A stretch of 64,000 bases of DNA from NCBI RefSeq assembly GCF_000024025.1, contig NC_013131.1, positions 4,278,001 through 4,342,000 on the forward strand, given 5' to 3'. Each line of letters starts with the position of its first letter. Within the stretch, counting starts at the first letter, position 1. Shown here one piece after another: positions 5,953 to 20,083 of this stretch. A model generated the notes under the pieces. It saw only the letters and a list, made by a program, of their open reading frames with translations, was not told the DNA's origin and made no database searches. Both the position numbers and the translations under genes were made by a program. This DNA comes from Catenulispora acidiphila DSM 44928. Its GTDB lineage: Bacteria > Actinomycetota > Actinomycetes > Streptomycetales > Catenulisporaceae.

Positions 5953-6869
5953 CACGAGGCCACCTCTGTCGGATTCGTTGCCGTTGCCGCTGTCGCCGCC
6001 GCTGCCGTCAGGTCCTCGGCGTCCGCTGCCACCACGGGCATCGCGGGCGCCCCCGCGCTGTTCATCAAGGCTGTGAGAACCCGGGCACGCTGGCCTTCGC
6101 GGGAAGCCGTCGCGTCGCGGGGACGCTGTACCGGGATGACGGTGTCGATCCCGGCACGTCCGAGGACGATCACCCGGTCGCCGATCTCCAGCGCCTCGTC
6201 GACGTCGTGTGTCACGAACACCACGGTCGGGCCGCCCTGCCGCCACACGTCCACGAGCAGCGCGCGCATCGCGGCCCGCGTCGCCGGGTCCAGCGCGCCG
6301 AACGGCTCGTCCATCAACACCACCGGAGGGGCACCGATCAGCGCGCGGGCCAACTGCACCCGCTGCCGCATCCCGCCGGACAAGCGGCCGGGCAGATGCC
6401 TGTCGAAGCCGTCCAGGCCCACCCGAGTGATCCACTCCTCGGCTCTCGCCTTGCGTTCGGCTCTGGGCACCTGCCGCACGGCCAGCGGGAACTCGATGTT
6501 GCGCCGCACGTCGAGCCACGGCAGCAGCGCGTCGTCCTGGAAGACCATCGCCCGGTCGGACCCGGGCCCGGTGACCGGCACGCCGCCCACACTGATCCGG
6601 CCTCGAAGGGTGGGCAGCAGTCCGGCCAGACCGCGCAGCAGCGTCGACTTGCCGCAGCCGGACGGGCCGACCACGGTAAGGATCTCACCGGCGCTGACTA
6701 CTAGATCCACACCGTCCACGCCACCGAGCACGGCGCGGCGCCGGTATCCGAGGACGACGTCGTGCAGCCGGATCTCGCAGCCCGAGCCCGGACCCGCAGC
6801 CGAAGGCGAGCCCGCGCCCGAGCCGGGATCGGAGCCGAAGCCGACGCCCGCGAGCGATGACGTGCTCAT
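5952..6869 (-). CDS. Sulfonate/nitrate-type ABC transporter ATP-binding protein
   Basis: This is a cytoplasmic ATPase of the SsuB/TauB/NrtD family, 305 residues against about 255 usual. The excess is a Gly/Ser/Pro-rich N terminus of about 30 residues and an Ala/Thr-rich C terminus. Walker A is GPSGCGKST, the Q-loop is MVFQDD, the signature is LSGGMRQR and Walker B is VVLMDEPFGALD, with the switch His in FVTHD. The ATG at 6869 overlaps the permease stop (ATGA). It would drive the permease at 6866 with the binding protein at 7859. The family moves organosulfonates, taurine, nitrate or thiamin precursors. The neighbours favour a sulfur compound. Confidence 0.88.
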   Translation of the reverse strand: MSTSSLAGVGFGSDPGSGAGSPSAAGPGSGCEIRLHDVVLGYRRRAVLGGVDGVDLVVSAGEILTVVGPSGCGKSTLLRGLAGLLPTLRGRISVGGVPVTGPGSDRAMVFQDDALLPWLDVRRNIEFPLAVRQVPRAERKARAEEWITRVGLDGFDRHLPGRLSGGMRQRVQLARALIGAPPVVLMDEPFGALDPATRAAMRALLVDVWRQGGPTVVFVTHDVDEALEIGDRVIVLGRAGIDTVIPVQRPRDATASREGQRARVLTALMNSAGAPAMPVVAADAEDLTAAAATAATATNPTEVAS

Positions 6870-7810
6870 CGCGACCCCTCCGTCCCGCGCGGCAGCCACC
6901 CGGTGACCCGCCGGCCGGCCAGTTCGACCGCCGCGGCGGTGGCGCCGCCGAGCAGGCCGATCGTGAGCATGCCGACGACCACAGAGGGATAGTCGACCAC
7001 CGTGTACGCCTCCCAGGTGCGGTATCCGATTCCGTACTGGCCCGAGATCATCTCCGCGGAGATGACGCAGATCCAGGCGACTCCCATGCCGACCGACAGG
7101 CCGCCGAAGACTCCGGGCAGCGCACCGGGCAGCACCACCCGGCGCAGCACCGTCCAGCGTCCGGCACCGAGGGTGCGCACCGCGTCTTCCACGACCGTCG
7201 GCAGGGCCCGCACGGCGTGCCGGGTCGAGACCAGGATGGGGAAGAACGCCGCGGTCGCGGTGATGAACACCATGCCCTGCTCGTTGCTCGGGAAGGCGAG
7301 GATCGCGATCGGCACCAGCGCGATCGCCGGGATCGGGCGCACGACCTCGAGCAGCGGCCCGAGGATGTCCTCGGCGAATCGCGAGCGGGCCAGCGCGATG
7401 CCCGTGCCGATCCCGGCGAGCCCGGCGATCAGGAATCCGCCCAGGATCCGCAGCAGGCTGGCGGCTATGTCCTGGTAGTAGACCGCAGTGCCCAACTGGT
7501 GCCGGAAGTCCGTGGCGACGGCGCCGGCCGAGGGCAGGTTCCCGAACCGGATCCAGAAAGTCACCTGGTGCGTGGTGAGCAGTTGCCACGCCAGGATCGC
7601 GGCGCCAAGCGACACACAGCGCAGCAACCGGCGCCCGGCTTTGGTTCGCAGTTCGCCATCGCGCCTTTGGCGGGTTTCGGCCCGATCCGTCTCGGAGCTG
7701 TCTGACAGGCCCTCTGACGGCGTCCAGCCGGGCAGGCTCCAGGGATCGTCCTGAACCGGGCTGGGCAAGATGCTGCGACTGCGCCGTCGTGCGATGTTCG
7801 TGGTCGGCAC
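6866..7810 (-). CDS. Sulfonate/nitrate-type ABC transporter permease
   Basis: This is an inner-membrane permease of the SsuC/TauC/NrtB family, 314 residues. A basic N-terminal tail of about 70 residues precedes the first membrane helix near LLRCVSLGAAILAW. The rest carries the usual six helices and the EAA-type coupling loop near VEDAVRTLGAGRWTVLRRVVL. It starts at a GTG (7810) and sits between the ATPase, which it overlaps by four bases, and the binding protein 48 bp upstream. It is part of one transcript with the ferredoxin and flavoprotein genes. Confidence 0.88.
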   Translation of the reverse strand: MPTTNIARRRSRSILPSPVQDDPWSLPGWTPSEGLSDSSETDRAETRQRRDGELRTKAGRRLLRCVSLGAAILAWQLLTTHQVTFWIRFGNLPSAGAVATDFRHQLGTAVYYQDIAASLLRILGGFLIAGLAGIGTGIALARSRFAEDILGPLLEVVRPIPAIALVPIAILAFPSNEQGMVFITATAAFFPILVSTRHAVRALPTVVEDAVRTLGAGRWTVLRRVVLPGALPGVFGGLSVGMGVAWICVISAEMISGQYGIGYRTWEAYTVVDYPSVVVGMLTIGLLGGATAAAVELAGRRVTGWLPRGTEGSR

Positions 7811-7858: not shown

Positions 7859-9301
7859 TCAGGCCTGCGCGAGTGCGGCGGCGTAGCTCACGATCGCCGA
7901 GCCGTGGTGGGCCGCGAGGTAGGCGTTCGCCTCGTCCTGGGTGGTGAAGGGCTGCAAGTGCGAAGTCGCGGGGTTCGCCGGGTCGCTGACCCAGATGTCC
8001 TTGTCCGCGAACCAGAGCGTTCCGTACGCCGCGTCGGGCACGTACGTCGTGTCGATCTTCTTGCCCTGGGCTTGGGCCTGCCGCACGAACCGCAGCGCGC
8101 AGGTCGGCGTCGCCGCGGGATGCGTGGACTGCTCCCCGGTGAGCCAGACCTGGGACGCGGTCGGCGAGCCGGCGGCCACGGTCAGGCCGCAGCCGGTGTC
8201 GGTCCCGGAGGCCGTGCTCGGGTTCGCGGTGGCTGCCGTCGCGGTCGAGTATCCGGTGCCGTACGCCTTCTCGAGGTAGGAGCCGTTGATGAAAGAGCCC
8301 AGATTTATCGAGTTGAGTACGCCGATCGACTTGAGGAAGGGGACATCGCCGCTCATCGCCGCGGTCTCCTGCGGCTTGAGCGTCGGGTCGAAGGTCACCA
8401 GGCCGTCTTCGCCGATGTAGAGGTAGACGACCTCGGGTGCCAGACCGGTCGTCGCGGCCACCGACAGCGACGCTTTGACCGGGTTCTGCTGCAAATAGCG
8501 CGTCGTCTGGATCTCGGCCTTGAGGAAGGCGTCGACGACGCCCGGCTGGCTCTTCGCGTACGACGTGCGCACGACCACGCCGTGCAGCGTCGGCACGTTG
8601 AGGGCGCCGCCGTCGTACAGCACCTTGGCCTGTCCGGCGTAGACGAGCTGTGCGGGCCACGCGGCGAACTGCGACAGCGCGGCGACCGAGCCGGCCTGCA
8701 GGGCCGAGGCGCCCACCGAGGGCTGCTGGTTGACGACGTGCACGGCGCTGGCGGGATTGAGCCCGTCGTTCTGCAGGGCCCTGACGAGGGTGCCGTCGGC
8801 GGCTGAGCCGACGCTGGTCGAGACCGCCTTTCCGGCCAGGTCCCGCAGCGAGGTCGCCGGCGAGTTCTCCGGCACGACGACCTGGTTGAGCGCACCGCGC
8901 AGGTTGAACCCGGTGGCGGCGATCATCTCGGTGTCCGTGGAGGCCTGCCGCTGCGCGGTCGAGCCGTTGATCAGCAGCGGGTAGTCGCCCATCGAGCCGA
9001 TGTCGATCTTCCCGGCGACCATCTGCGTCGTGATCGGCGCGCCGGTCGCGTAGTCCTGCCAGCTGATCGTGTACTTCTTGCCGGTGCTCTTGCCGAGCGC
9101 GTCGAGTTGCTGCTGGAAGTACCCGAGCGAGCGCAGCAGTGTCCCGGCGTTGATCGTGTCGATGGTCTTGGACTGGTACCCGACCACGACGTTGACGGTG
9201 TTCCCCGAGCTCCCCGTGGAACAGGCGGCGGACGACGCCGCGGCTGCGAGCACGGTCAGTGCCAGCGCCGTGCGACCCACGGCGGTGGTTCTCCTCATCA
9301 C
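7859..9301 (-). CDS. ABC substrate-binding lipoprotein with a NosL-like C-terminal domain
   Basis: This is the solute-binding subunit of the sulfonate-type transporter, 480 residues against about 320-350 for the family. The signal peptide ends at a weak lipobox (SAAC). The binding domain (about residues 35-350) has a TauA/SsuA-like pattern such as GKIDIGSMGDYPLL. The extra 110 residues at the C terminus (about 370-480) include a Cys near 371, CALRFV, WFADKDIWVSD and an ending of the type F-T-A-AYLAAHHG-A-VSY. This resembles NosL, a copper-binding lipoprotein domain. The NosL reading rests on pattern recall and is the weaker part. The domain could help deliver or sense a metal or sulfur ligand. 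Confidence 0.8.
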   Translation of the reverse strand: MMRRTTAVGRTALALTVLAAAASSAACSTGSSGNTVNVVVGYQSKTIDTINAGTLLRSLGYFQQQLDALGKSTGKKYTISWQDYATGAPITTQMVAGKIDIGSMGDYPLLINGSTAQRQASTDTEMIAATGFNLRGALNQVVVPENSPATSLRDLAGKAVSTSVGSAADGTLVRALQNDGLNPASAVHVVNQQPSVGASALQAGSVAALSQFAAWPAQLVYAGQAKVLYDGGALNVPTLHGVVVRTSYAKSQPGVVDAFLKAEIQTTRYLQQNPVKASLSVAATTGLAPEVVYLYIGEDGLVTFDPTLKPQETAAMSGDVPFLKSIGVLNSINLGSFINGSYLEKAYGTGYSTATAATANPSTASGTDTGCGLTVAAGSPTASQVWLTGEQSTHPAATPTCALRFVRQAQAQGKKIDTTYVPDAAYGTLWFADKDIWVSDPANPATSHLQPFTTQDEANAYLAAHHGSAIVSYAAALAQA

Positions 9302-9332: not shown

Positions 9333-9563
9333 TCAGCGCAACAGATAAGGCATGTTCACGGTCACCGCGCCGGTCGGGCAGCGCGCCGCGCACGGGCCGC
9401 AGTACCAGCATTCGTCGACGTGCATGTAGGCCTTGCCGGTCTCGGCGTCGATGGCGAGCGAGTCGAGGGGACACACCTCGACGCACAGGGTGCAGCCCTC
9501 GATACACAGGGACTCGTCGATCGTGACGGGCACATCAGAGCGCGAATTCTCGATAAGTGGCAT
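9333..9563 (-). CDS. Two-[4Fe-4S] ferredoxin
   Basis: This 76-residue ferredoxin has two 4Fe-4S ligand sets: CIEGCTLCVEVCP and CWYCGPCAARCP. The first has three residues between its first two cysteines, as in some AprB-like and 2[4Fe-4S] electron-transfer subunits. It lies at the front of the transporter-flavoprotein operon, 31 bp before the binding-protein gene, and is the likely electron donor or partner of the HEAT-flavoprotein. The ATG at 9563 is preceded by a GGGAG at about 8 bases. A Cys leader peptide ends 73 bp upstream. Confidence 0.9.
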   Translation of the reverse strand: MPLIENSRSDVPVTIDESLCIEGCTLCVEVCPLDSLAIDAETGKAYMHVDECWYCGPCAARCPTGAVTVNMPYLLR

Positions 9564-9636: not shown

Positions 9637-9747
9637 TCAGCGACACGGGCGACACAGGGCGCTGTTGGTGTGTCCGAAGTCGACGTACGGCCTGGTCACC
9701 AGATACAGCTGAACGATCGCGGGATACGCGGCGCGCACGGCGTTCAC
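9637..9747 (-). CDS. Putative Cys leader peptide in front of the ferredoxin-transporter operon
   Basis: This is a 36-codon frame ending RPYVDFGHTNSALCRPCR. The core (R-P/R-x-V-D-x, then S-A-L-C) matches the other two leaders in this window and the short actinobacterial peptides annotated as putative leader peptides upstream of sulfur genes. The first GTG (9747) overlaps the gntR stop (GTGA). Internal GTGs at 9738 and 9699 could also be used and the true start is uncertain. Two Cys codons lie in the last five codons, a place where slow decoding at low Cys-tRNA could act on the downstream ferredoxin gene. That mechanism is known for Cys uORFs in mycobacteria and is inferred here. Confidence 0.72.
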   Translation of the reverse strand: MNAVRAAYPAIVQLYLVTRPYVDFGHTNSALCRPCR

Positions 9748-10562
9748 GCGGCCGCGTCCGTGTCTGTGTCTGTGTCTGTGTCCGTGCCCGCATCCGGCAC
9801 GGTCACGGTGGGCCGGACCAGCCGGCCGCTCATCCGCATGCGGTCGCCGCGGAAGCGGATGTACTCCAGGTCCACCGGGCGCCCGTCGTCGAGCCGGGTG
9901 AGCCGTTCGAGCATCAGCAGCGCGGAGTCGCGCGGCACTTCGAGCAGATCGGCACAGTGCGCGTCGGCGTTGACCGCCTCCAGGCTGATCTCGGCCTCGC
10001 CGAGCCGCCGCCCGGTGATCCGCTCGATCAGGCAGAAGATGTCGGTGCGCTCGAGGTCCTCGGCCAGGATCGGCTCGCCGATCTCCGGTGCGAGGTACGT
10101 CAGGTCCAGGGAGAGGACCAGGCCGCTGACACTGCGCAGCCGCTCGATGTAGACGACCGGCGCGCGGTCGGGCAGACCGAGGTGGCGCGCGATGGACGGC
10201 GGCGCGGTGGCCAGTCCGGCGGTCCGGACCTCGTTGGTGACCGGGCCGTGCGCGCCGAGGGTCTCGGCGAGGCCGAGCAGCATGTCCAGGCCGTGCGGGT
10301 ACTTCTCAGCCGCCACCCGCGTACCCAGTCCCGGCACTCGGTCCACCAAGCCTTCCGAGCGCACCAGGTCCAGCGCCTCCCGCACGGTGTTGCGGGTCGT
10401 TTCGAACTCGCGGATCAGCGCGTTCTCCCCCGGAAGTATCCGGTCGTGGTACGCGCCGTTGAGAACCTGCTGGCGCAGCACGTCGGCGATCTGCCTGGCC
10501 TGGTCGGCACGCCGCCGCCGAATGGTGGGAGGAGTGCCGGCGACGATGGAATGGCCGTTCAC
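9744..10562 (-). CDS. GntR-family regulator, HutC/FarR subfamily (UTRA domain)
   Basis: An N-terminal winged helix (IADVLRQQVLNGAY, then LIREFETTRNTVREAL) is followed by a UTRA ligand-binding domain that runs to about residue 250, with the typical R-x2-R-P-T-V end. The protein finishes in a TDTDTDTD tail from a microsatellite. Two GTG codons are possible. The one at 10574 lies against the AAAGGAG ribosome-binding site and leaves no spacing, so the GTG at 10562, 11 bases after AAGGAG, is preferred. It is first in the ferredoxin-transporter-flavoprotein operon and probably controls it in response to the imported compound or a product. Confidence 0.85.
   Translation of the reverse strand: MNGHSIVAGTPPTIRRRRADQARQIADVLRQQVLNGAYHDRILPGENALIREFETTRNTVREALDLVRSEGLVDRVPGLGTRVAAEKYPHGLDMLLGLAETLGAHGPVTNEVRTAGLATAPPSIARHLGLPDRAPVVYIERLRSVSGLVLSLDLTYLAPEIGEPILAEDLERTDIFCLIERITGRRLGEAEISLEAVNADAHCADLLEVPRDSALLMLERLTRLDDGRPVDLEYIRFRGDRMRMSGRLVRPTVTVPDAGTDTDTDTDTDAAA
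9757..9786 (-). repeat. Hexanucleotide microsatellite in the 3' end of gntR
   Basis: A GTCTGT-type hexamer is repeated about four times. It encodes the alternating Thr-Asp tail of the GntR protein, just before the overlapping leader-peptide start. Confidence 0.85.
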
Positions 10563-10574
10563 CGAGGCACTCAC

Positions 10575-10873
10575 TCCTTTCTTGGGCCGGCGTCGTTAGG
10601 AGAACCGCAGAGGCATTGTTCACGCTCCTGGAAATGCTAGTTGCAGATCAGGCCGGTTCGGTCTCGTTTCGGTTACGCCACCTCCTGTCGCGCTCCGCCA
10701 GTCAGTGACCTGCGGATACGTCGTATTCGGCGGCCAATCTGCCACCGCCGGCGTCCACGATGTGAGCTGGGGGAGAGGGAGAAGGCGGCTCGAGAATTCT
10801 GCGGTCTACGAACCTTTCGGTATTACGAATAAGTCCCTAGTCCGCACCTTTCCCGGCACGATCGGCTCAGCGA
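10575..10873. other. Intergenic region upstream of gntR
   Basis: This 299-bp gap separates the gntR operon from the 3' end of the acetyltransferase gene and should hold the gntR promoter. An AT-richer stretch at about 10811-10850 on the minus strand (a TTATTCGTAATACC core) is a possible promoter. No clear palindromic operator or further gene was seen. Confidence 0.4.
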
Positions 10874-11869
10874 TCAGCGCTCGACGATGATGGCGGCCAG
10901 ATCTCGGGGCACGCCGCCCAGGCGCCGCTTGTAGTCCTGGGCGCCCTTCAAGAAGTCGAACCGGCAGTTCGCATCGAGGGCTTGTTCGACCAGGTATGAG
11001 ACGAGGACGACCCCTGGAGCCAGGCCGACCGCGGCATCGGAGATCAGGGCCGGGTCGTATGCCATGTTGTAGAGGTACGTCGTCGTGCGGTGGCGCAAGA
11101 CGATGGCCGAGGCCAGCCGTCGGTCGCCGGCGCACAACTCCACGACGTGTCCGGAGCCGCCCAGAGCTAATTCCCCGAGCAGGTCTGCCAACAGCCGTCC
11201 GTACTCCTCGACGAAATCCGCGGTGGCGGTACCGGCGGCGGACTTCCAGACCAGCAGCCGGTCGAGCGCTTCCGGCAGCGTTCCCGGAGTCGAGGCCTCC
11301 AGGCGCACCTCGCCGACTTCCTCGACCAGGCGGTTGCGCTTGCGCAGGACGTCCAGGCGCCGCTTGGAGTTCAGCAAAGTGAGGTACCCGTGGGGAGCTC
11401 CGTCGATGCCGGGCGCCTGATCATAGGTCTCGACCCGAGCCGTGGGCACGCGGCACAAGACCGCCTCGATCAGCTCCCGGGCTGTCACTTCGGCGGGTGT
11501 CAGACCGCCCAGGCGCGCTGAGCTCCACTCCGCTCCCTCGAGAACCCATCGCGCCAAGGCTTGCGCGACTTCCTTCTCCCGACCCTCCGCCGAGACCGGA
11601 CCCATGTAGTCCACCACGTCCTGGCCGCCGGCGAACGACAGCAGACCGCCGGACAGTTCGAAGGCGCAGACGCCGACCGTTCTGAGCCCGTCGACGACCT
11701 CGACGGCGAGCAGTTGCGACCCAGGGCTCTTGATTCGCGTGTCGCGCCACCACGGGAGCAGGAAGCGGCGGCTCTGGAACGGCGTCCCCGCCTCATCGAC
11801 GAGAGAGTCCCAGGAAGGATCCTCCAGCAGGACCGTGCCGGACCGGGCCACGATTTCGACGTCGTTCAT
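10874..11869 (-). CDS. GNAT acetyltransferase of the BioF2/CelD-like (Acetyltransf_6) family
   Basis: This 331-residue protein ends with FDFLKGAQDYKRRLGG, a hallmark of the FemAB/CelD-like GNAT family (Acetyltransf_6), with the conserved YLYNMAYDP strand before it. Known relatives act in cell-surface or exopolysaccharide modification or transfer acyl groups to amines. It has its own ATG at 11869 and lies 75 bp past the monooxygenase operon on the same strand, so it could be the last gene of that operon. The substrate is unknown. Confidence 0.75.
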   Translation of the reverse strand: MNDVEIVARSGTVLLEDPSWDSLVDEAGTPFQSRRFLLPWWRDTRIKSPGSQLLAVEVVDGLRTVGVCAFELSGGLLSFAGGQDVVDYMGPVSAEGREKEVAQALARWVLEGAEWSSARLGGLTPAEVTARELIEAVLCRVPTARVETYDQAPGIDGAPHGYLTLLNSKRRLDVLRKRNRLVEEVGEVRLEASTPGTLPEALDRLLVWKSAAGTATADFVEEYGRLLADLLGELALGGSGHVVELCAGDRRLASAIVLRHRTTTYLYNMAYDPALISDAAVGLAPGVVLVSYLVEQALDANCRFDFLKGAQDYKRRLGGVPRDLAAIIVER

Positions 11870-11944
11870 TCTTCTACCCCTGACTTGGGTCGTCGTGGAA
11901 TCGGATACTCCTCGCAGAACGAATCGGTCGCCGGGCAGTGGGAC

Positions 11945-13084
11945 TCACTTGCGTCCGGCCCACTCCTTGGCCAGCAGCCGGTAGGAGTTCACGCGGTCCG
12001 CGTGGTCGTGGGTGATGGTCGTGATGATCAGTTCGTCGGCTCCGACCGCGTCCCGGAGCGTCTCCAGCTGGTCGGCGACCTGTTCCGGCGTGCCCACGAA
12101 CTGGGTCTGGACCCGGTCCTCGACCAGAGCCCGGTCTTCCTCGGTCCAGGCGAACTTCCGGGCGTCCTGCGGCGTCGGGAACTGGATCGCGCCCTCACCG
12201 GTGCGGATGCTGCGGACCCAGGCGCCGTAGCCGGTCGCCAACTCGCGCGCCCTCGCCTCGGTCTCGGCGACCACCACGTCGGCGGAGACGCTGATGTAGG
12301 GCTGCCCGAGTGTCGCAGAAGGCTGGAACGCTGCCCGATAGCCTTCCGCGGCCTCGATGACGGTCGCCGGGCTGACGTGATAGTTCGTCGCGAACCGCAG
12401 TCCGCGCGCGCCGGCCGTCTCGGCGCTGACGCCGCCGCTGCTGCCGAGGATCCACAGTTGGAGGTCGGCGCCCTCGCCGGGGACGACGTGCGCCTGCTGG
12501 CCGTTCGCGTCGGTGTAGGTCCCGGCCAGCAGGGCCAGGATGTCGTCGATCTGCGAACTGTATTCCGGGGTCTCGGCGTTCGGCTGCTGAAGCAGGGTCC
12601 TGTGAAGGGCGAAGCGCGGCGAGTTTAGCAGCGGACGGAAGTCGAACGGCTTGGGGATGCGCAGACCGTTGGCCGTGTAGCCGTCGACGATCGCCGAGCC
12701 GGCGCCGGCCAGCGCGGGCACCTTGGGCTGGAGCGAGGTCTTGGATCCGCCCGAACGCCCGAGCCCGAGATCGAACCGCCCGGGATGCAGCGCGTCCAGC
12801 AGCCCGAACTCCTCGACCGTCGACAACGCGGTCCGGTGGCCGAGCTGTACGGCGCCGGAGCCGAGGCGGATGGTCTTCGTCGCGGCGGCGGTCAGCGCGA
12901 GCACGACGGCCGGCGCCGTCCCGGCGACGCCGGGGTTGAGGTGGTGCTCGGCGAACCAGTAGCGCGTGTAGCCGAACAGCTCCGCCTTCTGCGCCAGGTG
13001 AATGCTGTTCTGCAGGGCTTGCGAGGCGGTGGAGCCGGAGCTGATCGGCACGAGGTCCAGGACGGCGAGCGGTGTGTTGGCCAT
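11945..13084 (-). CDS. Luciferase-like flavin-dependent monooxygenase (single-component LLM type)
   Basis: This is an FMN-dependent TIM-barrel monooxygenase or oxidoreductase of the bacterial luciferase-like family, 379 residues. Diagnostic parts are the opening LDLVPISSG, RYWFAEHH near residue 40, RLGSGAVQLGH, and LHPGRFDLGLGRSGG at the flavin phosphate site. An open frame runs further upstream, but the ATG at 13084 is two bases after the stop of the preceding gene and gives the family's N terminus. It is the last of four LLM genes in the operon. The substrate is probably an organosulfur or N-acylated compound. YwbF/CmtA-like roles are also possible. Confidence 0.85.
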   Translation of the reverse strand: MANTPLAVLDLVPISSGSTASQALQNSIHLAQKAELFGYTRYWFAEHHLNPGVAGTAPAVVLALTAAATKTIRLGSGAVQLGHRTALSTVEEFGLLDALHPGRFDLGLGRSGGSKTSLQPKVPALAGAGSAIVDGYTANGLRIPKPFDFRPLLNSPRFALHRTLLQQPNAETPEYSSQIDDILALLAGTYTDANGQQAHVVPGEGADLQLWILGSSGGVSAETAGARGLRFATNYHVSPATVIEAAEGYRAAFQPSATLGQPYISVSADVVVAETEARARELATGYGAWVRSIRTGEGAIQFPTPQDARKFAWTEEDRALVEDRVQTQFVGTPEQVADQLETLRDAVGADELIITTITHDHADRVNSYRLLAKEWAGRK

Positions 13085-13086
13085 GA

Positions 13087-14211
13087 TCAGACCCCTTCGC
13101 GGGCTGAGACGAGTTCGAGCACTGGCTTGTCTTCGGGTTCGCGGCCGGGTTCGGAACCCGGACCGGACTCCCACTCCCAGGGGGGATCCGGGATCTCCCG
13201 CCGCAACACCGGGGCGATGTCGGACTGGAACAGCTCCAGCGAGGCTCGGTGCGCCGACAAGCTCAAGCCGCTCGGCTCAGCCTGGAGATGCAGGACGCTG
13301 TGTCCGAACTTCTCGTGATACCGGTGGACCTTCTCGATGATCTGCTGCGGGCTTCCGACCAGCGCCGAGCTCCGCTCCACGAAGTCCTCCAGGGTCGGGA
13401 AGACCGGCTCGCCGCCCAGGCGCTTCACCATCGCCAGATGCCCGGCGAACACCGGCGCGTAGTCCGTGACCGCCTGCTGGGACGTCCGCGCCGCGTAGAA
13501 ACCGGCACTGCCGGCGCCGACGGCGGCCAGCGCCGGATCGTGGCCGTAGAACTCCCAGCGCTCCCGGTAGTAGTCGATGAGCTCGGCGTACGGCTGGATC
13601 GGGTTGGTCACGTTGGCTGAGAACAGCGGATCGCCATACCGCGCCGCCAGATCCACCGACTCCCGGCTGGTCGCGCTTCCGTGCCAGATGCGGATCGGCT
13701 GCTGGAGCGGACGCGGCCACACCTCGGCGTCCCGCAACTCCGGCCGGAACCGTGGCGAGGCGGACACCTTGTCGTTGCGCCAGATCCGCCGGAACAGCTC
13801 GTAGGACTCTGCGTTCCGATCCCACTGGTCTTCAGGAGTGACATGGAACAGCTCCCGTTGCGCCGAGCCGTTCCCCTTGCCGATGATCAGCTCCAGCCGC
13901 CCGCCGGACAGGTGGTCGAGCGTCGCATAGTCCTCATAGGCCCGCACCGGGTCCAGCAGGCTCAGCGTCGTGACCGCGGTGAACAGCTTGATCCGCGACG
14001 TCAGCGCGGCGATGTGCGACAGGACGACCGTCGGCGAGGAAGAGATGAACGGGCGCTCGTGGCGCTCCCCGACGCCGAACCCGTCGAAGCCCAGTTCCTC
14101 GGCGAGCACGGCGGCGTCGACGACCTGGCGGAACCGTTCGTTCGTCGAGGTCTGTTCGCCGCTGATCGGATCGGGGGCGTGGACGATCAGGGATATGGTC
14201 AGGAACCTCAT
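13087..14211 (-). CDS. Luciferase-like flavin-dependent monooxygenase
   Basis: This is a second LLM-class protein of 374 residues. The family signatures are GFGVGERHERPF, then IKLFTAVTTLSLLDPVRAYED and LDHLSGGRLELIIGKGNG, the flavin phosphate-binding turn. The C terminus carries a charged Pro/Glu-rich tail. It starts at 14211 with an ATGA overlap to the upstream LLM gene and ends two bases before the next, so translation is probably coupled. With its neighbours it is proposed to oxidise carbon-sulfur bonds, an inference from the amino-acid transporter and acetyltransferase next door. Confidence 0.86.
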   Translation of the reverse strand: MRFLTISLIVHAPDPISGEQTSTNERFRQVVDAAVLAEELGFDGFGVGERHERPFISSSPTVVLSHIAALTSRIKLFTAVTTLSLLDPVRAYEDYATLDHLSGGRLELIIGKGNGSAQRELFHVTPEDQWDRNAESYELFRRIWRNDKVSASPRFRPELRDAEVWPRPLQQPIRIWHGSATSRESVDLAARYGDPLFSANVTNPIQPYAELIDYYRERWEFYGHDPALAAVGAGSAGFYAARTSQQAVTDYAPVFAGHLAMVKRLGGEPVFPTLEDFVERSSALVGSPQQIIEKVHRYHEKFGHSVLHLQAEPSGLSLSAHRASLELFQSDIAPVLRREIPDPPWEWESGPGSEPGREPEDKPVLELVSAREGV

Positions 14212-15584
14212 GCGGTCACCGACTCCAGCGTGCGGGCCGGTCGGGCGGGTCCGAGGCCGAGATGGTCGCGCAGCGTCGTGCCTTCATAATCGGCGCGGAA
14301 CACGCCGCGCTCCTGGAGGATCGGCACGACCTTGTCGGCGAAGGCGTCCAGGCCGCCGGGCGTCACATGCGGCACCAGGATGAAGCCGTCCGCGGCGTCG
14401 GCCTGGACCAGCTCGTCGATCTCGGTGGCGACGGCCTCCGGCGTGCCGACGAACGTCTGCCGGGCCGTGGTCTCGATGACCAGCTCACGGATCGACAGGT
14501 TCCCGGCTTCGGCCTTGGCCCGCCACTCGCCGGCGATCCGCAGCCGGTCGCCGAACGCGCGGACGCTCGCCCGGCCGCGCGAGACGGTCTGCTCCCCGGC
14601 CTCGGGGTCGACAGCCGGCAGCGGACCGTCCGGATCGAGGAAGCTCAGGTCCCGGTTCCACAGCTGCTCCAGGAACTTGATCGCCGTCGCGCCGCTCACC
14701 TGCGCGCGCCGCACGTCGCGGGCCAGATCGACGGCCTCGGCCGCGGTGTCCCCGATGACGAAGGTGGCGGCCGGGAGGATCAGCAGATCGTCGTGGGCGC
14801 GCCCGTACTCGGCCAGCCGGCTCTTGACGTCGGTGTAGAAAGCCTGGCCGTCGTCAAGCGTGCTGTGCCGGCTGAAGATGGCGTCCGCGCTGGAGGCGGC
14901 GAACTCCCGGCCCGCGTCGGAGTCCCCGGCTTGGAAGATCACCGGACGGCCCTGCGGGGAGGTCGGCACGTTGAAGCGCCCTGAGATGTCGAAGTGCTGG
15001 TCCTGATGCCGGAAGGACCCCGCGTGCGGGTCGGACAGGAAGGTCCCCGCTTCCTTGTCCGCCACGATCCGGGCGCCCTCCCAGGAGTCGAACAGCTCCC
15101 ACGCCGTGTGCAGGAACGCCTCGGCCCGCGAGTACCGGTCCTGCTCGGCGAGGAACCCGCCGCGCCGGAAGTTCTCGCCGGTGAAGGCGTCCCAGGAGGT
15201 CACGACGTTCCACGCGGCGCGCCCTTCGGACAGGTGGTCCAGGGACGCGAACTGCCGCGCCACTTCATAGGGCTCGTTGAAGGTGGAGTTGATCGTGCCG
15301 GTCAGGCCAATCCGGGTGGTGACGCCGGCCAGCGAGGCGAGCACGGTGAAGGTGTCCGGGCGGCCGACGACGTCCAGGTCGTAGATCTCGCCGCCCTGCT
15401 CGCGCAGCCGGAGTCCCTCGGCCAGGAACAGGAAGTCGAACTTGGCGCGCTCGGCGGTGCGCGCGAAGTGCTCGAAGGAGCTGAAGTCGATGTGGCTGCC
15501 GGCCTCCGGATCGCTCCAGACCGTGGTGTTGTTGACGCCGGGGAAGTGCGCCGCGAGATGGATCTGCTTGACGGGCTTGGTCAT
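14208..15584 (-). CDS. NtaA/SnaA/DszA-family flavin monooxygenase
   Basis: This is a 458-residue member of the NtaA/SnaA/DszA branch of luciferase-like monooxygenases, which use FMNH2 supplied by a separate reductase. Signatures are FDFLFLAEGL, TRIGLTGTINSTFNEPYEVARQF, LDHLSEGRAAWNVVTSW and the late motif GTPEAVATEI. Enzymes of this branch include dibenzothiophene-sulfone, nitrilotriacetate and dimethylsulfide monooxygenases, and YtnJ of the Bacillus S-alkylcysteine pathway. No flavin reductase gene is in the operon. The order of genes and the ATGA junction place it second in a four-gene LLM run. Confidence 0.87.
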   Translation of the reverse strand: MTKPVKQIHLAAHFPGVNNTTVWSDPEAGSHIDFSSFEHFARTAERAKFDFLFLAEGLRLREQGGEIYDLDVVGRPDTFTVLASLAGVTTRIGLTGTINSTFNEPYEVARQFASLDHLSEGRAAWNVVTSWDAFTGENFRRGGFLAEQDRYSRAEAFLHTAWELFDSWEGARIVADKEAGTFLSDPHAGSFRHQDQHFDISGRFNVPTSPQGRPVIFQAGDSDAGREFAASSADAIFSRHSTLDDGQAFYTDVKSRLAEYGRAHDDLLILPAATFVIGDTAAEAVDLARDVRRAQVSGATAIKFLEQLWNRDLSFLDPDGPLPAVDPEAGEQTVSRGRASVRAFGDRLRIAGEWRAKAEAGNLSIRELVIETTARQTFVGTPEAVATEIDELVQADAADGFILVPHVTPGGLDAFADKVVPILQERGVFRADYEGTTLRDHLGLGPARPARTLESVTA

Positions 15585-15598
15585 GGATGCGCTCTTTC

Positions 15599-16906
15599 TC
15601 AGGCTATTGCGAAGGAGGAGTCGGCGGCCTCCGCTGCCGGCTCGCCGGCAGAGACAGAAGCTGAGACAGAAGGTGAGACAGAGGGTGAGACCGTGGTTGA
15701 GACAGCGGCGGACGCGTATCGGTTCGCGGGCCGTTCCAGACCCAGCAGCCCGCGCAGGGTGTCGGCCTCATAGGAACGGCGGAACAGCCCACGGCGCTGA
15801 AGTTCGGGGACCAGGCCTCGGGTGATCTGCTCCAGGTCGTGGGGGACGGTCGCCGGACGCAGCCGGAAGCCGGACAGCCCGGCGCGATGCCAGTCGGCGA
15901 GCAGGTCGGCGAGCTGTGCGGGGGTGCCGGCGAAGATGTGCGCATCGCTGGTGAGCTCGCTGCCCGCGACGGCGTCGAGGCGGGCACGGCGGTCCCGTGC
16001 GGCTGCCTCGGTCTCGTCGAGGAAGACCAGGACGTCGCCGAATATGTGCAGCCTCTCGGCGGCCCGGCCCGCCAGTTCCTGCTCGTGCCGGATCTCCTCG
16101 ACGATCTCCGCGGCCTGGTCGGCGTAGCGCGGCGTGACGAAGCCGACGTCGGCGGCGCGCGCGATCAGCCGATAGGGGACGGTCGCGTGGCCGAGCGCCG
16201 TGACCAGCGGCTGCCCCTGCGGCGGCCGGGGCGTGATCGAGGGGCCCTTGACGCTGAAGTGGGCGCCTTCGAAGTCGATGTAGTGAAGCTTGTGCCGGTC
16301 GATGAACCGGCCGGTGGCCGCGTCGCGGATCTCGGCGTCGTCCTCCCAGCTGTCCCAGAGCCGGCGCAGCACCTCGACGTAGTCGACGGCCTCGTCGAAG
16401 AGCTCTGCGGTCAGCGCCTGGACCTCCGGCGTCTCGAAGTCCTCAAGCCGGAAGGGCGGGAACGTCCGGCGCCCGAACAGGTCCGCCTCGAAACCCCGGG
16501 CCGTGACCTGGATCCGGATGCCGGCCCGGCCGGTCGAGGCGTAGTCGAGCGTGGCGATCGCCTTGGACAGGTGGAACGGCTCGGTGTGGGTGACCACGCC
16601 GGTCGCGACCAGGCCGATGGTGCGGGTCACGGCCGCGACGCGGGCCGCGATCAGGACCGCGTCCAGACGCCCGCGGACCTGGTCGGTCCGGTCGTCGGCG
16701 CTGTGGTAGTCACCGGACTGCACCCCGAGGGAGTCCTCGATCGTGACGAAGTCGACCAGGCCGCGCTCGGCCTCGGCGACCTGGTCGGCCCAGTAGCGGG
16801 CCGAGAACAGCTCGGAGGGGCGGGCGTCGGGCTCGCGCCAGGCGGCGGGGTGCCAGCCGGCGTCGTTGAGCGCGATGGCCAAATGGAGCGGGGCGTTTGC
16901 GGGCAT
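15599..16906 (-). CDS. NtaA/SnaA/DszA-like flavin monooxygenase, first gene of the operon
   Basis: This 435-residue LLM protein opens LHLAIALNDAGWHPAAWR and carries VDFVTIEDSLG, IGLVATGVVTHTEPFHLSK and LDYASTGRAGIRIQVT. It is a diverged relative of the NtaA branch. The last 40 residues are low complexity (repeated Ser-Val-Ser-Pro), produced by a 12-bp tandem repeat, and are not expected to fold. It is the first gene after the Cys leader peptide at 17024, with 117 bp between. It is followed after 14 bp by the next LLM gene. The leader suggests cysteine-linked control. Confidence 0.84.
   Translation of the reverse strand: MPANAPLHLAIALNDAGWHPAAWREPDARPSELFSARYWADQVAEAERGLVDFVTIEDSLGVQSGDYHSADDRTDQVRGRLDAVLIAARVAAVTRTIGLVATGVVTHTEPFHLSKAIATLDYASTGRAGIRIQVTARGFEADLFGRRTFPPFRLEDFETPEVQALTAELFDEAVDYVEVLRRLWDSWEDDAEIRDAATGRFIDRHKLHYIDFEGAHFSVKGPSITPRPPQGQPLVTALGHATVPYRLIARAADVGFVTPRYADQAAEIVEEIRHEQELAGRAAERLHIFGDVLVFLDETEAAARDRRARLDAVAGSELTSDAHIFAGTPAQLADLLADWHRAGLSGFRLRPATVPHDLEQITRGLVPELQRRGLFRRSYEADTLRGLLGLERPANRYASAAVSTTVSPSVSPSVSASVSAGEPAAEAADSSFAIA
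15655..15713 (-). repeat. 12-bp imperfect tandem repeat at the 3' end of the LLM gene
   Basis: Four to five copies of a GAGACAGAAGCT/GAGACAGAGGGT-type 12-mer lie in frame and encode the SVSP/SVSA tail of the LLM protein. Confidence 0.75.
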
Positions 16907-17023
16907 GCGGAATTCGCTTCCTGCTCGATGGGACGCAGAGAGTTGAGACGGCAGGGGAAGGTGGCGCCGGATTCAGCCGACGAGAAGGGTGGTGTGGTGT
17001 GGCCCCGTGCTACCGGTGCCGGG

Positions 17024-17122
17024 TCACAGACCCAAACACAGACACAGACCCAAACACAGTGCGCTGGCGATGCGCTGAAGGTCGATGTGACGACGCGAGA
17101 AGGTGCCGACGGCTCGGTCCAT
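17024..17122 (-). CDS. Putative Cys leader peptide in front of the monooxygenase operon
   Basis: This 32-residue frame reads SRRHIDLQRIASALC at residues 9-23 and then alternates Cys/Leu/Gly/Leu (CLGLCLCLGL). The RRHIDL-R-ASALC core is the same as in the leader at 18057, which is also exactly 32 residues, and fits the actinobacterial leader-peptide family linked to sulfur genes. Three Cys codons (23, 27, 29) lie near the end, two of them created by a GTCTGT microsatellite. It starts at ATG 17122 and ends 117 bp before the first LLM gene. Attenuation or translational coupling by Cys-tRNA supply is the likely role; this is inferred. Confidence 0.8.
   Translation of the reverse strand: MDRAVGTFSRRHIDLQRIASALCLGLCLCLGL
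17025..17060 (-). repeat. Microsatellite inside the leader-peptide frame
   Basis: CACAGA/CCCAAA-type hexamers are repeated six times on the plus strand, that is TGTGTCTGTGTTTGGGTC on the coding strand. They supply the Cys, Leu and Gly codons of the leader's last ten residues. Confidence 0.85.
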
Positions 17123-17156
17123 GTCCGTCCCCTTCCCCTGACCAGAAGCATTTACC

Positions 17157-17175
17157 CTATAGATCTTATGGGGAT
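17157..17175 (-). promoter_or_regulatory. ATCCCCATA-N6-ATAG element upstream of the LLM leader
   Basis: Read in the direction of the monooxygenase operon, this is ATCCCCATA, six bases, then ATAG, ending 34 bases before the leader ATG. The same pattern lies upstream of the other leader at 17984-18002. It may be an operator for a sulfur regulator or part of the promoter; it could not be assigned. Confidence 0.5.
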
Positions 17176-17256
17176 AGTAGAGCACTGGAAACGGCTCTTG
17201 TATCCAGTCCCCGACGGGTTTCTCGAATACTGGACCGCCGGGGGTCGCGACCGGCT

Positions 17257-17967
17257 CTACTCGGCCGGCACCCGGATGCCGCCGAAGACCACGGTGCGGC
17301 GCAGCCGGAATCCGAGCGCCTCGTACAGGCGGATCGCGGCGGTGTTGTCGGCTGCGGCGTGCAGGAACGGGATCTCGCCGCGGGAGCGGATGTCGTGCGC
17401 GACGGCGAGCACCAGCCGGGCGGCCAGCCCGCGGCCGCGGAAGTCGGCGTGCGTGCACACGGCGCTGATCTCGGCGTGGCCCGGCGGGTGCAGCCGCGTG
17501 CCGGCCATCGCGACCAGCCGGCCTTCCTGGCGGATCCCCAGGTAGGTGCCCATCTCGATGGTGCGGGACCGGAACGGCCCGGGCTTGGCGTGCTCGACCA
17601 GGGCGGTCATCTCCGGGACGTCGGCGGCCGTGAGCCGGACCGCCTCCGGATCGGAGGCGGCGGCGATGCCGTCGTCGACCAGCTGCACGCCGGGCAACGC
17701 CATCACGACCTCCCAGCCGGGCCTGTCCGGTACGGCGTCCGACGCGGCGGTCAGGATCCCGCCGGGACCGAGCAGCTTGGCCGCGTCCCGCCAGTCCGCC
17801 TCGGTGGGACGCGGCGGCAGCGAGGTGAAGAACGACATCTCCGGCGGATAGCGCAGCACGTCGCCGACGCGTTCGGCGAACTCCGCGTGCGGTCCGAGCA
17901 GCGCGTGGCGGGCGGGATCGTCCAGGACGTGAGACAGATCTGACGGATCAGGGGCTTGCTTCGTCAT
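17257..17967 (-). CDS. GNAT N-acetyltransferase (FR47-like)
   Basis: This 236-residue acetyltransferase has a C-terminal GNAT/FR47-type core: ISAVCTHADFRGRGLAARLV (acetyl-CoA pyrophosphate loop R-G-R-G) and NTAAIRLYEALGF. The ATG at 17967 is chosen because the longer frame crosses the divergent promoter. It is transcribed away from the amino-acid permease gene. In Bacillus, the ytmI acetyltransferase, cystine-type transporter and LLM monooxygenases work together to N-acetylate and break S-alkyl- or S-succinyl-cysteine. A like role is proposed here from the same set of families. Direct substrate evidence is absent. Confidence 0.85.
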   Translation of the reverse strand: MTKQAPDPSDLSHVLDDPARHALLGPHAEFAERVGDVLRYPPEMSFFTSLPPRPTEADWRDAAKLLGPGGILTAASDAVPDRPGWEVVMALPGVQLVDDGIAAASDPEAVRLTAADVPEMTALVEHAKPGPFRSRTIEMGTYLGIRQEGRLVAMAGTRLHPPGHAEISAVCTHADFRGRGLAARLVLAVAHDIRSRGEIPFLHAAADNTAAIRLYEALGFRLRRTVVFGGIRVPAE

Positions 17968-17983
17968 GATGGCAAGGTACACA

Positions 17984-18002
17984 ATCCCCATAGTCCGAAT
18001 AG
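17984..18002 (+). promoter_or_regulatory. ATCCCCATA-N6-ATAG element in the divergent promoter
   Basis: This is the second copy of the element, 54 bases before the leader ATG at 18057, in the intergenic region between the GNAT gene and the transporter operon. Read as the reverse complement it gives CTAT-N6-TATGGGGAT. The nine-base block TATGGGGAT is identical to the copy at 17167-17175. Confidence 0.5.
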
Positions 18003-18056
18003 ACATTGTCCACCGGGGAGATCGGCTACCGTGACGGCGACAGCGAGGTGATCCGC

Positions 18057-18155
18057 ATGCGGGCAATGTACTCCCAGCTCCGGGTCCTGCGGCGCCACGT
18101 CGACCTGCTCCGGGTGAGCAGCGCGCTGTGTCCGGGCGCGTCCCAGGCCGTCTGA
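18057..18155 (+). CDS. Putative Cys leader peptide in front of the amino-acid transporter operon
   Basis: This is a 32-residue frame whose core reads RRHVDLLRVSSALC at residues 12-25, followed by a seven-residue tail. It belongs to the same family as the leader at 17024 and has the same length. It lies 111 bp before the permease start, between the shared upstream element and the structural genes. It has one Cys codon near the end. The family is seen upstream of sulfur-assimilation genes in actinomycetes; regulation by cysteine supply is inferred. The frame also has an ATG four codons in. Confidence 0.8.
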   Translation: MRAMYSQLRVLRRHVDLLRVSSALCPGASQAV

Positions 18156-18266
18156 GACTGACCGCGAGCACTCGCACAGCCCTCCTTCTCCCGCCTTCTG
18201 CGACGGCGCGCCCCCTGCGACGCGGCGTGTTTCGGTGCACCCCGACACCAGCGAAAGCACACAGCC

Positions 18267-19316
18267 ATGACCTCCGAAGTCTCGGCCGAGATCCCCGCGG
18301 GGATCTCAGCTCCCGCGCCATCGGCGGCCGTCGAACGGGACGCCGCCGCCGTATCCGGACCCGACCACCCATCCACCGACGAGCAGCTTCTGTCCGCCAA
18401 GCTCGTCCCGCTGCGCCGCCCCGGTCAGTGGATCTCGGCGGCCGTCCTGCTCGTGCTGCTGGCGATGCTGGTCAACACTCTGCTGACCAACCGGCGCTTC
18501 CAGTGGGACGTGGTCGGCCACTATCTCTTCCAGGCCTCGATCCTGCACGGCCTGGAGCTCACGCTCTGGCTCACCGCCGCCGTGCTGGCCGCCGGCTACC
18601 TGATCGGGACCGGCGTCGCGGCGATGCGGCTGTCGCCGAACCCGATCCTGAAGTCGCTGAGCTTCGGCTTCGTGTGGCTGATCCGCTCCCTGCCACTGCT
18701 GGTACAGCTGCTCTTCTGGTATGAGATCGCCTCCCTGTATCCGAGGCTGTCGTTCGGGATCCCGTTCGGGCCGGAGTTCGCCGGCGTCAAGACCGCGCAC
18801 CTGTTCAACGGGGTCTTCGCCGCGTTCATCGCGCTGACGCTCGACGTCGCGGCCTTCTCCTCGGAGCTCATCCGAGGAGGCATCCTGGCGGTGCCGTCCG
18901 GACAGGTCGAGGCCGCGCAGGCGCTCGGGCTGGGCAAGGGGCGGATCTTCCGCAGGATCGTGCTGCCGCAGGCGATGCCGTCGATCATCCCGGCGTCCGG
19001 GAACCTGCTGATCGGGATGCTCAAGGCGACGTCGGTGATCAGCGTCATCGCCGTACAGGACCTGCTGTACTCCACGCAGCTCATCTACAACGAGAACTTC
19101 CAGGTCATCCCGCTGCTGCTGGTCGCGACGCTGTGGTACATCGCGCTCACGACGGTCCTGTCCATCGGCCAGTACTTCGTCGAGCGGCACTACGCCCGCG
19201 GCACCGACCGGCGCGGCGACACCGGGTTCCCCGGGTTCCGGCAGGCGTTCACCGCGAATCTCCCGCTGTTCGGCAGAGCCGGACGGCCGGCTCGCGCGAA
19301 GGCGGCAACGCCGTGA
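18267..19316 (+). CDS. Polar amino-acid (cystine-type) ABC transporter permease
   Basis: This is an inner-membrane permease of the His/Glu/Gln/cystine family, 349 residues. An N-terminal extension of about 65 residues precedes the membrane part. Family marks are the TM region ending [18 protein letters not shown], the [27 protein letters not shown] coupling loop and [14 protein letters not shown]. The stop overlaps the ATPase start (GTGA). No substrate-binding gene is adjacent, so it must be supplied from elsewhere. The neighbours (GNAT, LLM enzymes, Cys leader) favour cystine or S-substituted cysteine as cargo. Confidence 0.88.
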
Positions 19317-20083
19317 CCGGGACACCGTTGGTCCGCATCAGAGGCCTGAAGAAGAGCTTCGGCGCGCACCGCGTCCTGGACGGGATCGACCTCGACGTCC
19401 GCGAGGGCGAGGTGACCGTGCTGCTCGGGCCCTCCGGCTCCGGCAAGTCGACCCTGCTGCGGTGCGTCAACCACCTGGAGCGGCCGGACGCGGGCTTCGT
19501 CGAGATCGGCGGCGACATCATCGGCTACCGCCACGACGGCGGCGGCAAGCTGCACGAACTGCACGGCAAAACCGTCACCCGGCAGCGAGCACAGGTCGGC
19601 ATGGTCTTCCAGCAGTTCAACCTGTTCCCGCACCTGACCGTCCTGGAGAACCTCATCGAGGCTCCGGTCTCCGTGCGGGGACTCGCCAAGGCCGACGCCG
19701 TGAACCGGGCTGTCGACCTCCTGGCCCGGGTAGGCCTGGCCGGCCGCGAGGGCTCCTACCCGCGCCACCTGTCCGGCGGCCAGCAGCAGCGAGTGGCGAT
19801 CGCCCGGGCACTGGCGATGGAACCACGAGTCCTGCTATTCGACGAGCCGACCTCAGCCCTGGACCCGGAACTCGTCGGCGAGGTCCTCGCCGTCATCCGA
19901 GACCTCGCGCACAGCGGCATGACAATGATCGTCGTCACCCACGAAATCGGCTTCGCCCGCGAAGTCGCCGACACCGCAGTTTTCCTGGACGGCGGCCGGA
20001 TCGTCGAGTCCGGCGCACCCGCCGCCGTCCTTGACCATCCCACCCACGACCGAGCCCGGGCCTTCCTGTCCGCGGTCCTGTGA
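19313..20083 (+). CDS. Polar amino-acid (cystine-type) ABC transporter ATP-binding protein
   Basis: This is a 256-residue ATPase of the GlnQ/HisP/TcyN family. Walker A is GPSGSGKST, the Q-loop is [10 protein letters not shown], the signature is LSGGQQQR, Walker B is [14 protein letters not shown], and the switch His is in VVTHEIGFA. It has the full family length. The GTG start overlaps the permease stop. It is the last gene of the transporter operon. The longer frame that begins upstream is antisense-like sequence within the permease gene and is not used. Confidence 0.9.

Follow-up and report, generated by a model that had tools for sequence, protein, structure and literature searches.

What three short, related reading frames do in front of three sulfur operons is the question raised by a 64,000-nucleotide (nt) stretch of the Catenulispora acidiphila DSM 44928 genome (the window; genome bases 4278001-4342000 of a single contig of 10,467,782 bases). 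The frames, here called leaders 1, 2 and 3, are new members of an already known kind of leader peptide. The explanation that we favour, with a probability of about 0.62, is that they are cis-acting leaders of the NF042934 type, in which a ribosome stalled at a UGU cysteine codon would block Rho-type termination and so link the operons to the cysteine supply. The new part of the finding is a signature at the level of the codon: the Cys codon of the shared motif is UGU at 177 of 177 sites read (136 + 1 + 40), from this genome to class-wide relatives.

Leader 1 lies at 9637-9747 on the minus strand (VNAVRAAYPAIVQLYLVTRPYVDFGHTNSALCRPCR), leader 2 at 17024-17122 on the minus strand (MDRAVGTFSRRHIDLQRIASALCLGLCLCLGL) and leader 3 at 18057-18155 on the plus strand (MRAMYSQLRVLRRHVDLLRVSSALCPGASQAV). 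The original prediction held that the three share a common core, that the last two are both 32 residues long and that each precedes a structural gene by 73-117 bp. Translation bears this out, as the motif R-[RP]-x-[VI]-D-[LF]-x4-S-A-L-C is present in all three, leaders 2 and 3 both encode 32 amino acids, and the distances measured are 73 nts from leader 1 to the ATG of a ferredoxin gene (9563), 117 nts from leader 2 to that of a luciferase-like monooxygenase (LLM) gene (16906) and 111 nts from leader 3 to that of an ATP-binding cassette (ABC) permease gene (18267), in each case on the same strand. A search for a strict form of the motif, R-[RP]-[HYA]-[VI]-D-[LF]-x4-S-A-[LI]-C with a stop no more than 12 codons on, gives three matches in the window and none in 150 third-order Markov simulations of it.

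The motif Cys codon is UGU at 9652-9654, 17054-17056 and 18129-18131, respectively. The leaders contain two, three and one Cys codons, none of them adjacent, and there is no consecutive Cys run. Leader 1 could start at any of three GTG codons (9747, 9738 or 9699), and its frame overlaps the stop codon of a GntR gene; the reliable core is VTRPYVDFGHTNSALCRPCR at 9637-9699. The C-terminal LGLCLCLGL of leader 2 (17024-17056, minus strand) is a simple (GTCTGT)/(GACACA)-type repeat, as is the final part of the GntR gene that precedes leader 1 (9755-9785, minus strand). Two more UGU Cys codons lie in this repeat-like tail of leader 2, and since congeners lack the tail they probably come from repeat expansion.

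It had been proposed that peptides of this type are annotated in actinomycetes, and leaders 2 and 3 do pass the curated cut-off of NCBIfam NF042934 (31.4 and 29.5 bits against 27), a family classed as cis_reg_atten and named 'putative leader peptide', the motif of which spans 19 positions. Both also match the model of the mycobacterial Ms4527A Cys-rich leader, more weakly than NF042934. Leader 1 had zero matches to NF042934 or other models in the profile search; it scores below the family model despite carrying the motif and UGU, as do several real siblings, and it weakly resembles an RPYVDF leader at 4879.9 kb. A scan of the window against Rfam gave zero matches, and no mechanism paper for NF042934 was found in the literature search. 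When the profile search was extended to the whole genome and the matched loci were read by regular expression, 10 loci were above the cut-off and several below it, giving 17 motif-bearing leaders, seven of them within 43 kb (4253-4296 kb). The three copies in 9 kb that were held to define a cysteine-responsive regulon are therefore present, but they are only part of this set; the idea of related leaders under peptide selection before sulfur operons stands, and the size of the regulon was understated.

The divergent arrangement of leaders 2 and 3 is seen again in several congeners, and leader 2 is also found before the orthologous monooxygenase in Streptomyces (assigned by kinship). Over the 13 codons preceding the Cys, the ratio of non-synonymous to synonymous differences (pN/pS) is 0.31 for leader 2 types from the genus and Streptomyces/order, and 0.05 for leader 3 types from the genus; judged by these ratios, both types are under purifying selection at the peptide level. 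A GAGGTGA-type Shine-Dalgarno sequence is kept before leaders 2 and 3 in most congeners which, together with the pN/pS values, suggests that the leaders are translated. In a class-wide sample 79 of 118 genomes were positive, representing 50 genera. In the sister family, leaders L218-L221, L224 and L225 make up a divergent branch, WRRVHMDLVRYAGCVCRPSC, in which Met replaces Val/Ile and the Cys codons are arranged as UGC-x-UGU.

The choice of codon stands out from the background. In the C. acidiphila genome the motif Cys is TGT in 17/17 leaders, compared to 45 TGT and 286 TGC (n = 331) in genes of the same loci; the UGU share of Cys codons in genes is ~14-17%. The chance of 17/17 is ~2e-15 if the leaders are treated as independent, although they do share ancestry. 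In the class sample TGT was read in 73/73 leaders, compared to 77 TGT and 370 TGC in the local background, and the non-motif Cys codons of the fetched leaders are themselves mostly TGC (53, against nine TGT). In spite of the shared ancestry, the other synonymous positions of the motif have changed freely (proportion of synonymous differences 0.38-0.55), and going from TGT to TGC takes a single transition. The UGU prediction was fixed before 40 held-out sites were read, 34 by regular expression and six by hand, and TGT was found in 34/34 of the former and in 6/6 of the latter, which are of the divergent WRRVHMDLVRYAGCVC type; one further leader outside the expression (L191) has TGT as well, and is the single site in the sum given above. 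As the model used to find the loci is a protein model, it cannot select for the codon. One match to the expression with UGC, L079 (MAAGLGVAPHGG...), was rejected as a chance frame that lacks the RR/SA context. One or two Cys codons per leader is the usual number, and in most leaders the UGU is located 2-4 codons before the stop. A description of the UGU rule was not found in the literature searched, a scope that did not extend to the key study of mycobacterial Cys-codon upstream open reading frames (uORFs).

A pattern search of the genome found one tRNA-Cys gene, with anticodon GCA, and no separate UGU-reading isoacceptor. A GCA anticodon reads UGU by G-U wobble, and UGC is read by the same tRNA. 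The supply of isoacceptors therefore cannot account for the choice of UGU, nor does RNA structure, and we infer that the constraint acts inside the ribosome, where weaker reading of the codon would combine with a conserved chain in the exit tunnel. The base that follows is also biased: it is G after UGU in 0/136 leaders and in 1/34 held-out leaders (L233), compared to 49% after the Cys codons of genes. This is a strong bias and not a rule, and it may be either a nucleotide effect or a preference for Pro, Arg or Cys as the next residue.

Between leader and gene the picture is different. The interval is 29-389 nts long, a length that is not conserved, and its sequence conservation is 0.34-0.49 compared to 0.86-0.90 for the leader in well-sampled groups. 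What the intervals have in common is their composition, with C at 0.40 and G at 0.27 against 0.35 and 0.32 in control upstream regions (P = 5e-5), and a C-G difference of 0.134 for 15 intervals of this genome against 0.032 for 36 control regions (P = 5e-5). Such C-rich, G-poor intervals would fit Rho-dependent termination. No intrinsic terminators were found in the leader regions searched, which do not have the features of a trp-type attenuator. RNAalifold energies for the intervals were better than those of column-shuffled nulls, yet conserved interval structure was rejected and the result given no weight, as column shuffling preserves neither composition nor codon order, and most of the predicted pairs fall inside the leader.

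In the mechanism that we favour, a ribosome would start the leader, build the chain R-R-H-V-D-L-x-R-x-x-S-A-L and then reach one obligatory UGU. If Cys-tRNA(Cys) is plentiful the ribosome would pass and leave, exposing the C-rich, G-poor interval to an early end of transcription, likeliest via Rho. If it is scarce the ribosome would wait at UGU and shield the start of the interval, so that transcription could run into the operon. With a conserved chain in the exit tunnel, reading by wobble may make a single codon sensitive enough to act as the sensor. In this proposal we infer translation of the leaders, cysteine as the signal, the direction of control, a part played by Rho and one played by the nascent chain.

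Four points weigh against it. The case for Rho loading is one of base composition, drawn from the 15 intervals of this genome. Leader 1 is absent before the orthologous ferredoxin and binding-protein pair in 14/14 relatives inspected, so that codon-level conservation, expected of all three frames, is seen for leaders 2 and 3 and cannot be demonstrated for leader 1. As leader 1 carries the family motif and UGU we regard it as lineage-specific, real but recently arrived. A UGU leader, MSAPLLAWSDRPVDLLRVASCMC... (~3387.65 kb), overlaps or precedes a cysteine dioxygenase-like gene (L035:7451-8332, minus strand), a target that is anomalous for a simple regulon induced by cysteine starvation. Finally, a candidate transcription-factor site, the hexamer TGAGAC, is enriched upstream of many leaders, and part of the sulfur control may therefore be transcriptional.

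The alternative that survives best, though we think it doubtful, is translational attenuation, in which the ribosome-binding site (RBS) of the structural gene is buried in mRNA structure until a ribosome stalls at the Cys codon and opens that structure. The members described in mycobacteria reportedly work in this general way, the stalled ribosome freeing a sequestered RBS. When the leader regions were folded in silico, however, RBS accessibility was 0.396 compared to 0.390 with shuffled intervals (P = 0.21), which gives no signal of sequestration. A ribosome modelled on the UGU lifted accessibility slightly, to 0.420 (P = 0.004), but one on the stop codon had an equal effect (0.418), and the lack of conservation in the length and sequence of the interval also speaks against this explanation. 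Cysteine genes of M. smegmatis have been called translation-attenuated (PMC13236596).

Somewhat less likely still is an arrest peptide, the nascent chain of which would sense cysteine or a derivative in the tunnel and halt the ribosome, the Cys then occupying the P site and a codon of the Pro/Arg type the A site. The ~13 residues before the Cys are conserved at the peptide level, and the next residue is Pro or Arg in 96/136 leaders and Ala, Val, Gly, Asp or Glu in 0/136. One held-out leader does have Ala after the motif Cys, and a mechanism that depends on the peptide only should tolerate UGC, as it does not by itself require UGU.

A signal in the RNA or DNA, either a hairpin or a protein site, that is merely translatable and has no role for the peptide is very improbable. 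Nucleotide-level conservation is seen for UGU and for the non-G base after it, and the motif Ser is mostly AGY, but the remaining codons of the motif show synonymous variation (Asp GAC/GAT, Arg CGN, Ala GCN) and pN/pS is well below 1. No common leader hairpin was seen, the top mean pair probability being 0.12. A hairpin within the leader that exposes UGU was considered and rejected: unweighted, UGU was paired at 0.365 against 0.493 +/- 0.022 in the codon-shuffled null, and after down-weighting of related sequences the values were 0.509 and 0.538 +/- 0.030, showing the effect to be pseudoreplication. That the frames are chance or unrelated small genes has next to nothing left in its favour and is refuted for leaders 2 and 3. 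Short GTG/ATG frames are common in high-GC DNA and leader 1 is unconserved at its locus, but no simulated window gave a match, the curated family matches, and leaders 2 and 3 are conserved in the genus and beyond.

The favoured mechanism has relatives among known systems. In the tnaC-tnaAB operon of E. coli, arrest on TnaC is induced by excess free tryptophan. The two are alike in that Rho would be kept from loading onto a C-rich interval while a ribosome is held close to the stop codon of the leader; they differ in the signal, as starvation at a sense codon is proposed here. In M. smegmatis, uORFs with Cys codons control the genes behind them according to how much cysteine is available (Canestrari 2020, as presented in PMC9031893). 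Those of Mycobacterium before nirA (Ms4527A) and cysA2 have Cys near the uORF stop before sulfur genes, as here (Shell 2015, PMC4633059), and the class search recovered leaders of the type LTKRRAVDLCRVAGCCCCCCSC, with the same motif and UGU at the motif position, that can be likened to them. The mycobacterial uORFs have Cys runs and leaderless mRNAs. Most leaders here lack a Cys run; leaders 2 and 3 have a Shine-Dalgarno sequence, and the start of leader 1 is unclear. The parallel with mycobacteria drawn at the outset holds for Cys codons near the stop before sulfur genes, and fails for the Cys run and for RBS sequestration, which is not above that of shuffled intervals. The passages of Seliverstov 2005 (PMC1262725) drawn on here describe candidate cys leader peptides in Mycobacterium, Propionibacterium and Bifidobacterium which, like ours, have Cys codons near the stop and no terminator hairpins, and suggest Rho as a weak possibility; cys leaders of Streptomyces or Catenulispora and the present motif are not reported in those passages. 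In Rhodobacterales, uORFC-8-2 before cysS is likewise a Cys-codon leader controlling a Cys gene, but differs in its tandem Cys codons, dominant UGC and intrinsic terminator with a U run (PMC8632094).

The genes behind the three leaders of the window are consistent with sulfur acquisition. Leader 1 is followed on the minus strand by a 2x[4Fe-4S] ferredoxin (9333-9563; Pfam Fer4_7, 1.3e-10), an SsuA-like sulfonate/taurine-type ABC substrate-binding protein (7859-9301; TIGR01728, 2.1e-34, below the curated cut-off; NMT1, 1.6e-10) and an ABC permease (6866-7810; BPD_transp_1, 1.5e-21). Behind leader 2 are four consecutive LLM monooxygenases of differing subfamilies (11945-16906, minus strand). The first, an NtaA/DmoA-family enzyme dependent on flavin mononucleotide (15599-16906), matches TIGR03860 at 2.4e-81 (273.7 bits against a cut-off of 279.7); it is followed by a second NtaA/DmoA-family member (14208-15584; TIGR03860, 6e-120, above cut-off), a CE1758-like enzyme (13087-14211; TIGR04036, 2.6e-74, below cut-off) and an MsnO8-family oxidoreductase (11945-13174; TIGR03558, 1.9e-92, above cut-off), and then by a GNAT-fold gene (10874-11869). 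Leader 3 precedes, on the plus strand, an amino-acid/cystine-type ABC permease (18267-19316; TIGR01726 above cut-off, a cystine permease model at 9.9e-30 below cut-off) and an ABC ATPase with L-cystine TcyN as its best match (19133-20083; NF008428, 9.4e-101, below the curated cut-off).

Elsewhere in the genome, the leaders precede an LLM monooxygenase (4253 kb), a polar amino-acid binding protein (4259 kb), a taurine-dioxygenase-like (tauD) gene with flavin reductase and LLM genes (4268 kb), an SsuA-family binding protein (4880 kb), ssuE followed by a weak SsuA-type protein (4883 kb), an NtaA/DmoA monooxygenase as behind leader 2 (6528 kb), a Nik/Gsi-type binding protein (3171 kb), an Opp/Gsi-type permease (6443 kb), cysH (8562 kb), a ThiS/CysO-like gene with cysteine synthase (cysO-cysM; 8760 kb) and a 3-mercaptopyruvate-sulfurtransferase-like (3-MST-type) rhodanese (9557 kb); the remaining sulfur targets are the ferredoxin and SsuA-like genes of leader 1 and the cystine-type permease and ATPase of leader 3. 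Three targets were less expected: a mycothiol-dependent-enzyme-like gene (3166 kb), a ROK regulator (4267 kb) and the cysteine dioxygenase-like gene (3388 kb). With the exception of the ROK regulator and the dioxygenase, the downstream genes serve sulfur or cysteine supply, and the set of 17 probably couples sulfur-scavenging operons to the supply of cysteine. A weak match before cobN (7052 kb) was dismissed, as the start codon is missing and the Cys codons are UGC.

Upstream of leader 2 on the minus strand are a Shine-Dalgarno-like AGGGGAAGGGG (17129-17139), where congeners show GGGAGGTGA, and a putative promoter or operator element ATCCCCATAAGATCTATAG (17157-17175) that is common to leader 3 and has related forms in congeners. 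On the plus strand, leader 3 has a strong Shine-Dalgarno sequence GAGGTGATC (18045-18053) and the corresponding promoter/operator-like element ATCCCCATAGTCCGAATAG (17984-18002), also similar in congeners. Within the window ATCCCCATARNNNNNATAG is found only before the two divergent leaders, similar sequences occupy the corresponding place in congeners, and two matches were obtained in 0/100 shuffles. The regulatory region of leader 3 (17904-18226, plus strand), a cassette comprising the start of a GNAT gene, the divergent promoter, the leader and 71 nts beyond its stop, is duplicated with 92.3% identity over 325 bp. The second copy is located 38 kb away at ~4258.6 kb (L033, ~7900-8230), before the polar amino-acid (cystine-type) binding protein, as though a single control unit served two components of the same transporter. 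TGAGAC (either strand, up to 220 nts upstream) accompanies 10/17 leaders of this genome (0.056 expected per region), 23/48 genus or order leaders (3.2 expected) and 18/69 class leaders (3.1 expected); for leader 3 it is located at ~17920-17930, and its flanks suggest CC(R)3-n2-GTGAGACG. This enrichment suggests a candidate site for a sulfur regulator, and with it a second, transcriptional layer of control.

Across actinomycetes NF042934 is annotated merely as a 'putative leader peptide'; for one genome there is now a 17-member set together with the operons that it covers. The UGU rule may help to tell real leaders from chance matches such as the one before cobN, with its UGC codons and no start codon. 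Since a single tRNA-Cys decodes both UGU and UGC here, a swap between them changes no amino acid and would show cleanly whether reading by wobble determines how sensitive an attenuator is. We suggest, tentatively and with rather less confidence than even odds, that the nascent chain makes UGU, not UGC, followed by a base other than G, an obligatory cysteine sensor for this one leader family across actinomycetes. If this is true, codon identity would carry regulatory information beyond the supply of tRNA isoacceptors, and a single starved codon would do what takes a run of codons in known attenuators.

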